Source: an uncultured Mediterraneibacter sp. (GTDB lineage: Bacteria > Bacillota > Clostridia > Lachnospirales > Lachnospiraceae). Taken from it: a stretch of 64,000 nucleotides of DNA. Made by a program: the position numbers and the translations under genes. The notes under the pieces are model-generated. The model saw nothing but the letters and a program-made list of their open reading frames with translations, had not been told where the DNA came from and made no database searches. Where the stretch lies: positions 124,001 through 188,000 of the forward strand of contig CALWMN010000002.1 of assembly GCA_944381935.1 (NCBI GenBank), read 5' to 3'. Every line of letters starts with the position of its first letter. Position 1 is the first letter of the stretch. Shown piece after piece: positions 5,102 through 13,142 of this stretch.

Positions 5102-8100
5102 AAAACGAGAGGGCATTTTTTCATGTTTTTCCTACATTGAAGGTTGAGGATGATATCCAGATACTTTTTACAGATGTGGAGGTAAAGAAGATCACGACGA
5201 ACTCACGCCGTGATTTTCTCCGCGTACATATTTTCAGCCGGCATCTGATCCAGAAAAAGCAGATATGGCAGATGGAGCAGAAAATTAAGGAACAGCTTTT
5301 CGGCAGGGCCCAGGTCTGTGTGCACATTGAAGAGAAGTATGCGCTCTCCGGGCAGTATACCCCGAAAGTACTCCTGGGGGAATACAGGGAAAGTATCATA
5401 CAGGAACTCAGAGAGACGAGCGTTCTTGCCGCTAATATGTTTGCCCAGGCGGATATCCGGTTTGAGGAAGGGGATGTAATAGAGCTGGGACTGCTTGATA
5501 CGATTGTATCGGAGGGGCGCAGGGACGAGATCTTAAGCTACCTGGAAGAACTCTTTAAGAAGCGGTTTGGGATGGAGGCCGATATCCGTATCTCATACCG
5601 CCATGCGGAGAATGACAGAAACAGGGAGTACGATGAGCAGAGAGTTCAGCAGGAGATCAATGCGATCTTTGAGAGAAGAGCGGTGCAAAGGAGAGGGGCT
5701 GCTGACGGGAAGGAGAAAGACTCAGGAGAAAAGGCAGGAGAGAAAAACGGAGTGTCCCGCAGCGGTTCCCTGAAGGGAAGGAGCGGGAACGGAAGAGGAA
5801 AAGGCGCAGGGAAATCGTCCGGGAACAAGGAGTTCCGAAAGAAAGATTTCTATCGCCCGGTTAAGACAGGGGATGACCCGAACCTCATCTATGGGCGGAA
5901 TTTTGAGGATGAGCCTGTGGCACTGGAGCAGGTTGTGGCAGAGGTAGGGGAAATCACCATACATGGGAAGATCATCAGCTTTGATACACGGGAGATCCGG
6001 AATGAGAAGACGATTATTATGTTCGCAGTGACAGATTTTACGGACACAATTATGGTGAAGATGTTTACCCGCAACGATCAGCTCACGGAGATACTGGGTG
6101 AGCTGAAAAAGGGCGTCTTTGTAAAGATAAAGGGCGTCACCACGATCGATAAATTTGACGGGGAACTTATCATCGGATCTGTCACAGGGATCAAAAAGAT
6201 CGGGGATTTTACGGTTTCAAGAAAGGACTTAAGCCCGGTCAAACGCGTGGAGCTCCACTGCCATACGAAGATGAGCGATATGGACGGGGTGTCTGAGGTG
6301 AAGGATATCGTGAAACGGGCCCACGACTGGGGGCACCCTGCAATTGCCATAACGGACCACGGAGTCGCTCAGGCCTTTCCGGATGCGAATCATTATATCG
6401 AGACACTGGATAAAGACGACCCCTTTAAAGTCATCTACGGCGTGGAGGGATATGTGGTGGACGACCTGACGGATATCGCAGTGAACCCGGAAGGCCAGAC
6501 TCTGGATGACGTGTTCGTGGTATTCGATATCGAGACGACGGGATTCAGCGCCGTCCAGGACAGGATCATTGAGATCGGTGCGGTGAAAGTTGTAAACGGT
6601 GCGGTTACAGACCGGTTCAGTACTTTTGTCAATCCCCAGAGGCCGATCCCGTTTGAGATCACGAACCTGACCAGCATCACCGATGAGATGGTGATGGGGC
6701 AGCCTTCCATAGAAACGGTGCTGCCTCAGTTCCTTGAATTTGTCGGGGACGGGGTGCTGGTGGCGCATAATGCAGGGTTCGACGTCGGGTTTATTGAGCA
6801 GAACTGCCGGGAGCTGGGGATCGGGCAGAAGTTCACATATGTGGATACGGTCGCTATGGCAAGGGTGCTTCTCCCGACCCTCTCAAAATATAAACTGAAT
6901 CTTGTGGCGAAAGCGCTGGGGATCTCCCTGGAGAACCACCACCGGGCAGTGGATGATGCAAAGGCGACGGCGGAGATTTTCGTGAAGTTCGTGGAGATGC
7001 TCAAAGATGCGCACATCACAACGCTCGAGGAGATGAACCGTTTTGGCGACCGCAACGTGAACGCCATCAGGAAAATGGCGACGCACCATATTATCATCCT
7101 GGCAAAGAATGATATCGGCAGATACAACCTTTACCAGCTGATCACAGAGTCCCATCTGACTTATTATGCAAGGCGTCCCAGGATTCCCAAGAGCCTCCTG
7201 AACGAACACAGGGAGGGGCTTATCATCGGAAGTGCCTGTGAGGCGGGGGAACTCTACCAGGCAGTCCTGGAGAACCGTTCTGCAGAGCAGATCGCCCGCT
7301 TGGCGGACTTCTACGACTATTATGAGATACAGCCAGTGGGAAATAACCGCTTCATGGTCGAAAGCGACCGGACGCCGGATGTGAACAGCGTGGAAGATCT
7401 TCAGGAGTTAAACCGCCGGATTGTGGAACTGGGAGAGGAGTTCAAAAAACCTGTTGTGGCAACCTGCGACGTTCATTTTCTTGACCCGGAGGATGAGGTA
7501 TACCGGCGGATCATCATGGCAGGGAAGGGATTTGATGACGCGGACACCCAGCCGCCCCTTTTCCTTCGGACAACAGAGGAGATGCTGGATGAATTTGCTT
7601 ATCTCGGCTCGGCGAAGGCGAGAGAGATCGTGATAGACAACCCGAATAAGATCGCAGGGATGGTGGAGAAGATCTCCCCGGTCAACCCGAATAAGTGCCC
7701 GCCTGTCATTGAGAACTCAGACCAGGAGCTGAGGGACATCTGTTACCGCAGGGCACATGAGATGTACGGGGAGGACCTGCCTGAGCAGGTCTCGGGGCGA
7801 CTGGAGAAGGAGCTTAATTCCATTATATCCAACGGATACGCGGTTATGTATATCATCGCCCAGAAGCTTGTGTGGAAATCGAATGAGGACGGTTATCTGG
7901 TCGGGTCGCGGGGGTCGGTCGGGTCGTCCTTTGTGGCAACGATGTCAGGGATAACGGAGGTGAATCCCTTAAGTCCGCACTATTACTGTAAGAAATGCCA
8001 CTACAGCGATTTTGAGTCAGAGGAGGTCCGCGCATATGCAGGGGGTTGCGGCTTTGATATGCCGGATAAGAACTGCCCGGTATGCGGGGAAAAGCTGGTG

Positions 8101-9688: not shown

Positions 9689-11731
9689 CTAATTTTGATA
9701 GCTGAAGATGGATTTCACAACTTCTTTTGTGTCTGCGTTGACGTCGGCTCCTGCGACATATACGCCGTCCTGATAGATTGAGACGGGGATGAGCATCAAA
9801 CTCCCGCCCTCCCAGTAGTATTCCTTTTCGACGTGGAACTCCACATCCGCATCTGCGGGAACGCCGAGCTGTTCACGAATATACTGTTCGTCGTCTTCGG
9901 ATAAGACAAAGATCGAATTATCCTGGGAGTCAAAATAGACGGGATGCCCGTAAGCCCTGCTGTACTGCAGGGTGAGCCCGGCATCCTGGGCATCGTTGAG
10001 CACATCGCCGGATATGTACTCCATCTCAAGGATTCCGTTGACCGCTTTAAAGCGATAGGTGCAGTCAAGCGAGATCTCCTGGTCATTAAAGGTTTCCCGG
10101 TCAAAGACGAGGTGGAGGGAGTCCTCCTCGACGGTGTATGTCCCGATCGCCTGATAGAAATATTCCCCCTGAACTTCCCCGATCATATACTGTACTCTGC
10201 CGTCGTCGGTAAAATCAAGGGCAAAGAGATAGTTCCTGCCGTCATCGGAGCCATAGTAGGTTGCCTCCCAGCCGCCTTCAAGTGTCTCCGGGTAGAAGCC
10301 GGAATCCCGCAGGGCGCTGAAGTGGATATTGTCCTCAGCCATGACGAGGAGCTCCACCTGGAAATTATCTTTATACCAGATGTATCTGGTCCCACCGTTG
10401 TCAGGATCGGTAAAACATGGTTCCCTGCCATAACCCCTCTGGGTCAGATAGACATTCAGCTTATCCAGACATTCCGTAGCGTCTACAGGGGACGCCTCGA
10501 ATGGATTGCCCTCCTCGTCTTTCAGGTCATAGTTGACCGGATTTAGGAAACCGTAATACGCCTCTGCGTTCTGTTCCCATGTATCCATAGAATTTTGGGC
10601 CGCGAGGCCGAAAAATGCGTCCGGTATCGGGATATCCGAGCCGGAGAAACATTCGGGGAAGGGATCGATGGAAGCGTCCGAGGGATCCTGCCTTACGTTA
10701 TAGTTGACCTCTTCCTCCGGTTCATAAGAGGGGGCCTCCGCGTCTTCCGGTTCCTGTGTCCCTGCAGTTTCAGAGTTGTCTTCGGTTTTTGCCTCAGGGG
10801 AATCAGAGGTGGCAAAATAGGTGACGGTTCCCACGGCGCCGCCCAGAATGACGCACGATACGATGCCAATCAATATTTTGGCAGCAAGTCCCTTCCCGGC
10901 AGCGCCAGCAGCGGCGGCAGCACCGGAATTTGCAGCGCCAGCAGCGGCGGCTGTCCCGCCCGCCTGTTCGCCCATAATCCGGCACTGTTCCAGAATCGCG
11001 GACAGAAGACCTGCATCAGGCGGCGATACAGGCTGGGCATCCCAGTTCCTGAAGAGGAGGAGCAGGAAGGAAACCGGGGAAAGAGAGTAGAGCTTTGTTC
11101 CCTGCTTTTCCAGTTCTTTTACGGCTGCCTCAATGTTCCGCCTTCCGTGCAGAAGACGCGACTTTACGGTGTTTTCGTTGATCTGCAGGAGATCCGCAAT
11201 AGAGCGGACACTCATCTGTTCATAGTAGTACATTGCGATGACTGCCCTCTGGCCAGGACTTAAAGTGTCCAGTATCTCTCCCATAAGGCGGGCAGTTTCT
11301 TTCTGGTCTATCACTGTTTCCGGCAGATTTTCGGTACGGTCGTCTTCAAAATCCACCGTGCTGTCTGTGTCGCAGGAAACCTGGGAAAATACCACGGGTT
11401 TGGCTTTCCTCAGATAATCTACGGCACGGTTGTGGGCGATCCTTTTCACCCATGCCCGGAATTTATCGGATTCCTTCAACTGATGCAGGCTTTGAAAAGC
11501 CTTGACATAAGAATCCTGAATGATATCAAGCACGGCATCCTCGTCTTTTATGAGAATGGCTGCCGTTTTATAGGCCGCTGCGTATGTACGGCGGTACAAT
11601 TCCGAGATGGCGTCCTGGTCCCCTGCGGCGGCACGGTCTGTCAGTTCTTTGGAAAAACCCTGTTCCTCCCCGCAGCGGGAACAGAATTTTGAGTTATCTG
11701 GAAGTTCTTTTCCACAATGAAAGCATTTCAT
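9689..11731 (-). CDS. ECF-like sigma factor with N-terminal zinc ribbon and C-terminal transmembrane plus extracytoplasmic domain
   Basis: This 680-residue protein joins several parts. Residues 1-26 form a zinc ribbon (Cys3, Cys6, Cys17, Cys20). Residues about 35-110 are sigma region 2 with DIIQDSYVKAF and FRAWVKRIAHNRAVDYLR. Residues about 147-210 are sigma region 4 with LSPGQRAVIAMYYYE and ENTVKSRLLHGRR. An Ala/Gly-rich linker leads to one membrane helix (about 283-306), then an acidic linker and roughly 350 residues predicted outside the cell, ending in a PepSY-like VYVAGADVNADTKEVV strand. Ordinary ECF factors are about 160-200 residues and soluble. The fusion implies a membrane-held regulator that senses an outside signal and may need cleavage to release the sigma part; that is inference. 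A TATAAT box 40 bases upstream (11770-11775) could give a separate promoter. It follows a lipoprotein gene on the same strand. Confidence 0.85.
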   Translation of the reverse strand: MKCFHCGKELPDNSKFCSRCGEEQGFSKELTDRAAAGDQDAISELYRRTYAAAYKTAAILIKDEDAVLDIIQDSYVKAFQSLHQLKESDKFRAWVKRIAHNRAVDYLRKAKPVVFSQVSCDTDSTVDFEDDRTENLPETVIDQKETARLMGEILDTLSPGQRAVIAMYYYEQMSVRSIADLLQINENTVKSRLLHGRRNIEAAVKELEKQGTKLYSLSPVSFLLLLFRNWDAQPVSPPDAGLLSAILEQCRIMGEQAGGTAAAAGAANSGAAAAAGAAGKGLAAKILIGIVSCVILGGAVGTVTYFATSDSPEAKTEDNSETAGTQEPEDAEAPSYEPEEEVNYNVRQDPSDASIDPFPECFSGSDIPIPDAFFGLAAQNSMDTWEQNAEAYYGFLNPVNYDLKDEEGNPFEASPVDATECLDKLNVYLTQRGYGREPCFTDPDNGGTRYIWYKDNFQVELLVMAEDNIHFSALRDSGFYPETLEGGWEATYYGSDDGRNYLFALDFTDDGRVQYMIGEVQGEYFYQAIGTYTVEEDSLHLVFDRETFNDQEISLDCTYRFKAVNGILEMEYISGDVLNDAQDAGLTLQYSRAYGHPVYFDSQDNSIFVLSEDDEQYIREQLGVPADADVEFHVEKEYYWEGGSLMLIPVSIYQDGVYVAGADVNADTKEVVKSIFSYQN
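10899..10951. repeat. Two 20-base direct repeats in the Ala-rich linker of the sigma protein
   Basis: Identical 20-base units lie at 10899-10918 and 10932-10951, exactly 33 bases (11 codons) apart. They encode part of the Ala/Gly linker between sigma region 4 and the membrane helix. The spacing keeps frame if copies are gained or lost. Confidence 0.85.
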
Positions 11732-11802
11732 ATGTTTTCCCCTCCTTGCATAGAGCTGGTTCTATTATATCAGAAAGTTATATTTTTCATAGACTTATTG
11801 CG

Positions 11803-12963
11803 TTATTGTACGGAAAAACTGGCAAAATCATGAGTTTCCATGAGCATGGAGAGACATTCCTGTTCTGCCTGCTCAGGAGAAGTGTAAGAATAGTCAGAAA
11901 CGATAATGGTTGACGCATCTTCATCAAACTCTCCTGAGCTTGTCTGGACAAAATTTCTTATCAGGACATATCCGGTAGTCGTCTCGTTATCGCCAAGCCG
12001 TATATCTCCGGGAAGAGTGCCGTAAATGTAATAAGGCACGATCAGGTAGTTATAGCCGTCCTGTTTTTCTTTTATTCTGCTTGTGGCGATATATGCCTCC
12101 GGACCATATGAAAGTCCGTCAAAAGAAAGGAAGTCGTCCCCCTCAAAACGGTAGGAATCCTGTCCGTCCATAATGAAGAAGGTCCGTTCGAGTTCTGACA
12201 GGAGCGCCTCGTCGCAGTACGGTTCGACCTGCGCCCAAAGTTCAGGAGTCAGCTCCGACACAAAGCTGTCCAGTGAATCTGCAGTGAGAGTAAGAGTTTC
12301 CTCTTTGAGCACATAGCCTTCCTCCTCAAGCTCATCCGGCAGATTTGCAGTGATGGTGACGGTATCTCCAAATGTCAGGTTCTCATCGGGAGACGCCGAG
12401 TAGATGACTCTGAACAGGATATTGTCGGCAGGCATTTTGTTTTCGATCCTTACGCCGCCGAAGGGAGACCGCCCGGAAAAGTGAAGTTCTATTCCGTCTT
12501 CTCGATTGAAATACTGGCTGTCAAATGCATCGACCACGGTCTTCTCCTTAAGGCCCTCCACCTCAAATGTTTCTTCTATTTCGCCGACAGACCGGATATT
12601 GCAGCTTTTGGCAAGATCACGGTCGAAGGATACAGTGACCGTAACCTTATCGCCGTTTTTGAGTCCCTCTTCTTTGTTTACCGTACAGGCTATGGACTCT
12701 TCAAAAGAAGCAAGATCCTTTATGTCTTTCAATATTTCCTCAGGGGAAATATCCTCCCTGTCCTCAGTAAGAGCAGAGATGAGATCCGCCTCCATCGATG
12801 ATTTGTCAAAAGAGGCTGTTGCCGTACCTTCCCCATCCATGCCATGAAAGGATACGATAAGATAGTCCGTCATCTGAAGTTCCGTTTTTCCCGAACAGCC
12901 TGCCAGTGCAAAGGCTGTGGTTATGATTGTGGCTGCTGTGATTAAAAAAGTTTTTAATTTCAT
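11803..12963 (-). CDS. Lipoprotein of unknown function, partner of the tethered sigma factor
   Basis: This 386-residue protein begins with a basic, hydrophobic signal sequence ending in the lipobox LAGC (Cys23), so it should be lipidated on the outer face of the membrane. The body holds repeated strands such as NGDKVTVTVSFD and FGDTVTITANLPDELEEEGY, which look like tandem beta-sandwich domains, and a C-terminal part with YGPEAYIATSRIKEKQDGY that may be a separate module. The start is ATG 12963, which overlaps the stop of a 44-codon ORF (ATGA); a longer frame from 13113 has no separate support. The sigma gene starts 71 bases after its stop. I recognise no named family. Confidence 0.8.
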   Translation of the reverse strand: MKLKTFLITAATIITTAFALAGCSGKTELQMTDYLIVSFHGMDGEGTATASFDKSSMEADLISALTEDREDISPEEILKDIKDLASFEESIACTVNKEEGLKNGDKVTVTVSFDRDLAKSCNIRSVGEIEETFEVEGLKEKTVVDAFDSQYFNREDGIELHFSGRSPFGGVRIENKMPADNILFRVIYSASPDENLTFGDTVTITANLPDELEEEGYVLKEETLTLTADSLDSFVSELTPELWAQVEPYCDEALLSELERTFFIMDGQDSYRFEGDDFLSFDGLSYGPEAYIATSRIKEKQDGYNYLIVPYYIYGTLPGDIRLGDNETTTGYVLIRNFVQTSSGEFDEDASTIIVSDYSYTSPEQAEQECLSMLMETHDFASFSVQ

Positions 12964-13094
12964 GTCTTTTCCTCCGTTTTTTCTTTTTTGATTCTGTCCA
13001 AAATATTCTGGAGCAGTTTTTCTGCTGTCTGGGAATCCAGGCACATCTGTTCTGCATATTCCCGGATAAAATTTTTTAGCTCTGTATTTTTCAC
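12960..13094 (-). CDS. Small 44-residue protein, translationally coupled to the lipoprotein gene
   Basis: A GTG start at 13094 lies behind AAAGGAG and opens a 44-residue frame whose TGA overlaps the lipoprotein ATG (ATGA). The product is charged and helix-like, starting MKNTELKNFIREYAEQMCLD and ending in a Lys/Glu-rich tail. The good ribosome site, the four-base overlap and the sensible composition support a real gene. It has no membrane span. It could be a small regulator or only a leader peptide that couples translation. Confidence 0.6.
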   Translation of the reverse strand: MKNTELKNFIREYAEQMCLDSQTAEKLLQNILDRIKKEKTEEKT

Positions 13095-13117
13095 GTTTTC
13101 TCCTTTCCTGCATATAA

Positions 13118-13142
13118 GACGTAAGAAAAGACAGGGAGGTTT
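13118..13142 (-). promoter_or_regulatory. Candidate ECF-type promoter for the 44-aa ORF/lipoprotein/sigma operon
   Basis: Read on the - strand, AAAC (13142-13139) and CGTC (13121-13118) are separated by 17 bases, like the AAC / CGT(C,A) boxes used by many ECF sigma factors. The predicted transcript would start just before the ribosome site of the small ORF. Confidence 0.4.

Follow-up and report, generated by a model that had tools for sequence, protein, structure and literature searches.

Canonical pairs of extracytoplasmic function (ECF) sigma and anti-sigma factors, such as sigma-V/RsiV, combine an envelope-facing sensor with an ECF-type promoter and an autoregulated operon. Fused membrane sigma factors are also already known (IutY and ECF52). 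ECF52 (SCO4117 of Streptomyces coelicolor) unites ECF regions, a membrane helix and a large outside domain in one protein, for which excision from the membrane has been proposed and positive autoregulation described (PMC5826349), and IutY (ECF243) of Pseudomonas putida is a sigma factor fused to a membrane part, with proteolytic release shown by experiment (PMC8999054). The same source lists ECF48 and ECF53 as predicted C-terminal membrane fusions (PMC8999054). Here, a three-gene operon for a membrane-tethered ECF sigma factor, a lipoprotein and a 44-aa protein is analyzed in a stretch of 64,000 nucleotides (hereafter the window) from an uncultured Mediterraneibacter sp. (assembly GCA_944381935.1, contig CALWMN010000002.1, positions 124,001 to 188,000). 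Literature searches listed no paper described as dealing with such a tethered sigma factor in Clostridia, which is not a claim of absence from print.

With a probability of roughly two in three, the operon works as a self-contained switch across the membrane, built on one protein and reinforced by positive feedback. Protein architecture, topology by charge, family conservation, the promoter, its covariation with the sigma protein and the linkage of the partner gene were all computed; the release mechanism, the signal and what the lipoprotein and the small protein do are inferred.

Architecture of the tethered sigma protein

Three genes share the minus strand of the window, namely, in transcription order, a 44-codon open reading frame (ORF), a lipoprotein ORF and an ORF for a sigma protein of 680 aa (Table 1), and the gene order proposed in an earlier sequence-only reading of this DNA, with the lipoprotein gene and its 44-codon partner preceding the sigma gene on one strand, was thus recovered. 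The first two ORFs share an ATGA overlap, and the ECF-type -35 element reaches out exactly to position 13142, at which that reading ended the locus. Sigma70_r2, Sigma70_r4_2 and Zn_Ribbon_1 were all above the Pfam cut-offs in the sigma protein, whose domain order is zinc ribbon, regions 2 and 4, a hydrophobic segment (GTKLYSLSPVSFLLLLF), a linker, a single membrane helix and an outside part of about 380 residues. The Cys4 ribbon and both sigma regions of the sequence-only reading are present, with the position of the ribbon corrected to the N terminus, before region 2; the single membrane helix was confirmed by hydropathy, and the outside part exists, its size being about 380 residues and not about 350. 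The hydrophobic segment GTKLYSLSPVSFLLLLFRNW looks too short for a membrane span.

An acidic stretch joins the helix to the outside part, and the charge flanking the helix is +1 before it and -11 after it. The N side of the helix is more positive than the C side in 37 of 38 members of the family, a pattern suggesting that the sigma part is placed inside. Architecture, charge topology and family conservation together support the proposal that a single protein unites a sigma factor, its membrane tether and an outside domain. The stretch leading from the KLYG motif to the helix is highly variable in length and contains 36-85% Ala, Gly, Ser and Thr in these 38 members; such an Ala/Gly-rich linker could provide reach or serve as a stop for partial degradation.

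It had also been suggested that the fused part may act as an anti-sigma factor. In the stretch between the sigma part and the membrane, neither a Pfam anti-sigma family nor a ZAS-like zinc finger was matched in the window protein and nine other members (10 members scanned); the only zinc ribbon of the window protein precedes region 2. The lack of a separate anti-sigma gene was borne out within the operon, which is what the scan covered and not the opposite-strand neighbours, as the 44-aa and lipoprotein genes gave no anti-sigma match.

A frameshift or an assembly error, either of which could have produced such a fusion artificially, was checked and excluded by the presence of the complete fusion and an identical gene order in other genomes (L038/L070, L039/L071, L069, and L093); in addition, at each of the 45 places bearing the family signature described below, the reading frame stays open for 447-1146 aa. 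Within the same genus, two genomes (L038 and L039) have kept the whole arrangement, with sigma protein identities to the window of 54% and 50%, respectively. Upstream of the cassette in both of them (L038 3178-5409 and L039 10544-12868), there is a gene for a large secreted protein with GWWY...GKV repeats and, as judged by eye, a transglutaminase-like end. The neighbours in the window are unlike those in L038 and L039, implying that the cassette occurs in different surroundings.

Table 1. Features of the tethered sigma factor operon (positions within the window)
Feature	Position	Strand	Basis or remark
44-codon gene	12960..13094	-	GTG start; belongs to a conserved family of small proteins; probably two helices, judging from the sequence pattern
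Lipoprotein gene, 386 aa, lipobox LAGC	11803..12963	-	Relatives in other loci; predicted model
Membrane-tethered ECF sigma factor gene, 680 aa	9689..11731	-	ORF and Pfam
ECF-type promoter AAACC-N16-CGTC, ahead of the operon	13118..13142	-	Spacer exactly 16; related loci; covariation with residue 105
TATAAT-like -10, possibly giving the sigma gene a basal promoter of its own	11764..11769	-	By eye, in the gap that separates the lipoprotein and sigma genes
N-terminal Cys4 zinc ribbon, residues 1-25	11657..11731	-	Pfam Zn_Ribbon_1 7.9e-07
Sigma region 2, residues 45-111, with D105 in region 2.4	11399..11599	-	Pfam Sigma70_r2 6.8e-11
Sigma region 4, residues 150-199	11135..11284	-	Pfam Sigma70_r4_2 5.9e-13
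Conserved hydrophobic segment after region 4, residues 211-232, GTKLYSLSPVSFLLLLFRNWDA	11036..11101	-	Family comparison
Membrane helix, about residues 282-300	10832..10888	-	Hydropathy; charge
Outside lipocalin-like barrel, about residues 481-594	9950..10291	-
C-terminal alpha/beta domain, possibly PepSY-like, about residues 608-678	9698..9910	-

Distribution of the family

A scan of named genomes with two peptide patterns kept 80 of 268 relatives, the best 41 of which (L069-L109) were analyzed; the 39 weaker ones (L110-L148) lie outside the analysis, and with these patterns zinc-ribbon and QDSYVKAF-like members are over-represented in the sample. All 41 loci were assigned to Bacillota by title or taxonomy, except L080, a contig of a metagenome-assembled genome (MAG) labelled Atopobiaceae, and the nearest named records were Candidatus Mediterraneibacter avicola, pullistercoris and norwichensis. 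The ORF is complete in 37 of the 41 loci, and a hydrophobic segment follows the sigma part in all 37; the other four run off their contigs, either before the helix (L078, L080, and L109) or after it (L106). In Pfam, all 44 members, the window protein among them, matched sigma regions 2 and 4; the zinc ribbon was matched in 15 of these. The outside parts vary considerably: among 38 members, DUF5640 was found in five, lipocalin-like domains in three and BspA-type leucine-rich repeats in two, with WG repeats, RHS repeats and others as single cases. A carbohydrate-binding module, as expected outside the membrane in ECF52-type factors, is not among the 14 Pfam families of these 38 outside parts, and the lipocalin-like fold of the window protein excludes nothing else.

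A profile of 48 residues covering the end of region 4 and the KLYG segment was built from 23 of 32 rows (four misplaced and five divergent ones were left out). At E<=1e-6, it matched 35 of 299 same-family genomes (the 45 places mentioned above), and across the phylum only two of 398 genomes, both of the same family. Judging from the sequences matched, the KLYG segment accompanies long fusions and not free sigma factors in these searches.

The genome of the window encodes a second tethered sigma factor (L043 5606-7711, on G000:C13), which has no zinc ribbon, a different outside domain and a TGTC-type promoter. It also encodes a 376-aa relative (L046 6333-7463, on G000:C17) whose region 4 is shortened and runs directly into other sequence and in which the helix was not found; it looks like an internal deletion. 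Tandem genes of a different design were observed in L048 (3480-5381 and 5398-7434, minus strand), with the membrane helix (ALIILLIAAVLTACAYIIL and a near-copy) placed directly behind the sigma-like regions and a large outside part beyond it.

Promoter of the operon and its covariation with the sigma protein

Of 48 regions, 17 have the motif AACC-N16-CGTC ahead of the first gene, compared with a mean of 0.11 and a maximum of 2 in dinucleotide shuffles and with at most one for each spacer of 6-15 or 17-26 on that strand. When variants were included (AACC, ATCC, AACT or GTCC with CGTC or TGTC, and AACC with CGTT), a promoter with spacer 16 was detected in 38 of the 48 regions, and other spacers from 10 to 22 gave only 0-3. 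By its sequence, an ECF-type promoter stands ahead of the sigma factor's own operon, as in ECF sigma factors (group IV of the sigma-70 family). In Lachnoanaerobaculum orale (L090 5750-5843), a promoter of the form GCAACC-N16-CGTT occurs in two tandem copies upstream of the sigma gene at 6001. Directly before the sigma gene, a TATAAT-like element was seen by eye in five of six loci viewed (window, L069, L070, L071, and L072), the sixth (L093) having TATGAT; a consensus scan did not pick this element.

The first base of the -10 element varies together with residue 105 of the sigma protein: Asp goes with C in 30 of 30 cases and Asn with T in eight of eight, and among the alignment columns tested, the column of this residue, which lies in region 2.4, had the highest mutual information with that base. 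The T class is scattered over the family, with five changes on a tree of 46 rows, at least four of which are forced by supported branches. On a tree made without the residue-105 column, four of four independent pairs on supported branches agreed, a number too small for a sign test to attain 0.05; a fifth pair on the best tree is not counted among these four. Forty later loci, in which residue 105 was located by profile, included 13 with a near promoter, two of them copies of earlier rows, and the rule held in 10 of the 11 new ones; it also held in three further later loci with a candidate promoter farther upstream. This covariation indicates that the protein works as a sigma factor. There is good evidence, at the level of sequence, that each tethered sigma factor reads the promoter of its own operon, suggesting that the window protein and its clostridial relatives may switch on their own operons. 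Separately, in the CGTT class (L083, L085, L090, L091, L097, and L099), T as the last -10 base goes with Ala in place of T188 in region 4 in all six cases, an association that may reflect descent only, as the six rows form one clade.

The 44-codon gene and the lipoprotein

A small-protein profile built from 13 seeds, chosen by an LL-x-IL-like pattern, matched 18 distinct loci of 48 below E 1e-9, 13 of which were the seeds themselves. In 17 of the 18, no more than about 110 bases separate the 44-codon gene from the sigma gene, or from the lipoprotein and sigma genes, that follow it; in L087, it ends about 800 bases off. With a profile of 19 rows, eight places below E 1e-3 were found in the 299 genomes, and seven of them lie at the distance expected directly upstream of a place with the sigma signature (two were already known, from the window and the genome of L077, and another is G198). 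The ratio of nonsynonymous to synonymous polymorphism (pN/pS) was 0.22-0.41 across six codon comparisons, implying that the gene most likely encodes a protein; its GTG start reads GCG in L038 (the same sequence as L070). In other branches, dissimilar small ORFs take its place (e.g., L079, L083, L090, L091, and L100-L102). A count of small ORFs gave 30 of 47 regions versus a mean of 3.5 and a maximum of 9 in controls, which were single-base shuffles only, and this count included some unrelated ORFs and missed L070 and L071.

The 44-aa protein of the window had no Pfam match at E<=1 and no NCBIfam match above cut-off, and no Pfam family was above cut-off in the other members. The SHOCT-like family PF22746 stayed below its cut-off (best 19.9 bits versus 27, in two of 19 members), and the comparison of the small protein with a SHOCT-like profile was not convincing (score 14.0, P 0.015, one of 60 shuffled controls higher). 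Judging from these comparisons of sequence, the 44-codon gene is a more constant partner than the lipoprotein gene and represents a conserved family tied to these sigma factors.

Of 41 clostridial-type loci, 10 were found to contain a relative of the lipoprotein, which is a lower bound because several loci are short. These relatives lie between the small gene and the sigma gene (L069-L072 and L093), downstream (L073, L076, L077, and L081) or upstream (L098). The three-gene arrangement is therefore present in the window and in other genomes as the sequence-only reading described it, with the qualification that the lipoprotein is not obligatory and changes position. At E<=0.001, relatives occur in 57 of the 299 same-family genomes, own genome included, and three of those viewed begin with a zinc ribbon in place of the signal peptide. 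The protein matched no Pfam family at E<=1, and its predicted model, with a predicted local distance difference test (pLDDT) score of 85, had no clear match to any solved fold in PDB. From its distribution, the lipoprotein appears to be a general surface family recruited to this operon.

Other potential targets

Across 43 loci, the same element at spacer 16 was detected within 200 bases of 10 other genes, compared with four in all over 16 other spacers (8 to 24). A lipobox is present in five of these 10 neighbouring genes versus none for the other-spacer controls (L100 and L102 being near-copies). In L040 (genome G018), a divergent lipoprotein relative lies under its own copy of the promoter. 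A T-rich form of the promoter, with up to three mismatches, occurred five times in the window's genome versus 17 in controls, and only the window operon was within one mismatch. The regulon looks local by these motif searches.

Proposed mechanism and alternative explanations

It is proposed that a basal amount of sigma protein, perhaps produced from the TATAAT-like element, would be anchored on the inner side of the membrane through the single helix of the protein. The outside domain, comprising the lipocalin-like barrel and the small alpha/beta domain, may sense an envelope or ligand signal, perhaps together with the lipoprotein, upon which the sigma part would be freed or exposed to RNA polymerase. 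Intramembrane proteolysis by an RseP-type protease would be the most likely route, and is preferred because of the analogy with IutY and with the proposal for ECF52; one M50 protease is encoded in the window's genome, which is weak support since all 14 control genomes have one as well. The freed sigma factor would transcribe from the AAACC-N16-CGTC promoter of its own operon, leading to self-amplification and to more lipoprotein, 44-aa protein and sigma protein. The 44-aa protein may be a dedicated cytoplasmic partner, most likely holding or tuning the tethered sigma factor.

Several observations weigh against this proposal. The promoter variants were picked after the sequences had been viewed (the spacer control covers the variants equally), near-copies exist among the loci (L100-L102; L106/L107), and no near promoter of the three patterns was found in 10 of the 48 original regions or, for these patterns, in 27 of the 40 later loci. 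One clear exception, L260, breaks the residue-105 rule by having N105 with CGTC. In the genome of the window, AAACC-N16-CGTC occurred 20 times versus 21 for backward controls, and no regulon beyond the own operon was visible.

Some bacterial regulators, such as ToxR, remain membrane-bound and act in place at the membrane. It is possible, if rather unlikely, that the tethered sigma factor works uncut in a comparable way, in that the signal alters the protein, which then recruits RNA polymerase at the membrane, with the Ala/Gly-rich linker giving reach; two precedents favour release instead, namely the experimentally shown proteolysis of IutY (PMC8999054) and the proposed excision of ECF52 (PMC5826349). 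Equally doubtful is a scheme that makes the 44-aa protein a miniature anti-sigma factor and leaves the membrane part only to localise the sigma factor. The 44-codon gene is the most constant neighbour, lies behind an autoregulated promoter and is under purifying selection, and autoregulated ECF operons often include their own inhibitor, all of which would fit; however, the 44-aa protein matched no anti-sigma domain, its family gave only the sub-threshold SHOCT-like hits in Pfam, and the outside domain would be left without evident use.

The lipoprotein could be a signal receptor or a feedback inhibitor docking on the outside domain and not an output, a role that we consider conceivable without favouring it. 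Its place in the same operon, the relatives near tethered sigma factors in other loci and the relative in L040 with its own promoter of the same type are consistent with such a role, whereas 31 of the 41 loci have no relative that was found, and lipoproteins of no detected similarity under such promoters (L095, L100, L102, and L103) fit an output better. A decayed or non-functional fusion, whose sigma part no longer directs transcription, is highly improbable: the shortened relative in the own genome points in this direction, but strong conservation, the promoter covariation and the repeated joint switches of residue and promoter base all contradict it.

In its broadest form, the proposed switch would represent a new one-protein signalling class of gut and rumen Clostridia, with modular outside sensors fused by one helix to a sigma factor that lacks an anti-sigma domain, is silenced by tethering and by a dedicated two-helix peptide, and has targets largely confined to its own operon and to genes nearby, often for lipoproteins; this generalization is tentative and has somewhat less than an even chance of being correct. 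If true, Clostridia would possess a compact design that places sensor, tether and transcription factor in one protein with a predictable promoter. With the N16 promoter and the residue-105 rule, targets could be predicted from sequence, the constant small partner could be put to the test, and isolate-like records (Blautia sp. An249, Lachnoanaerobaculum orale DSM 24553, and Pseudobutyrivibrio sp. ACV-2) could allow such testing.

Comparison with known systems

In the canonical pairs of the sigma-V/RsiV type, sensor and sigma factor are different proteins, whereas they are one protein here, and no separate anti-sigma gene is present on the operon's strand at the window locus. IutY shares the fusion of a sigma factor to a membrane part, but its fused part is an anti-sigma factor of iron-starvation cell-surface signalling, which is FecR-like, and no such Pfam match was found in the clostridial protein. 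ECF48 and ECF53 differ from the window family in being actinobacterial and in having a zinc-finger anti-sigma-like part. ECF52 resembles the window protein in that sigma regions are followed by a membrane helix and an outside domain in one protein (in the window, by hydropathy and charge). Unlike ECF52, which carries a ZAS-like zinc finger in its C-terminal extension and is restricted to Actinobacteria, the window protein has an N-terminal ribbon (as do 15 of 44 members) and no matched anti-sigma family, the loci are clostridial or otherwise from Bacillota but for the one MAG contig, and the clostridial tethered sigma factor is accompanied by genes for a small protein and often a lipoprotein. 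What differs, compared with these systems, is a clostridial family that combines the lack of a recognised anti-sigma domain with an N-terminal ribbon, a conserved KLYG segment, a dedicated small partner and a local-looking regulon.

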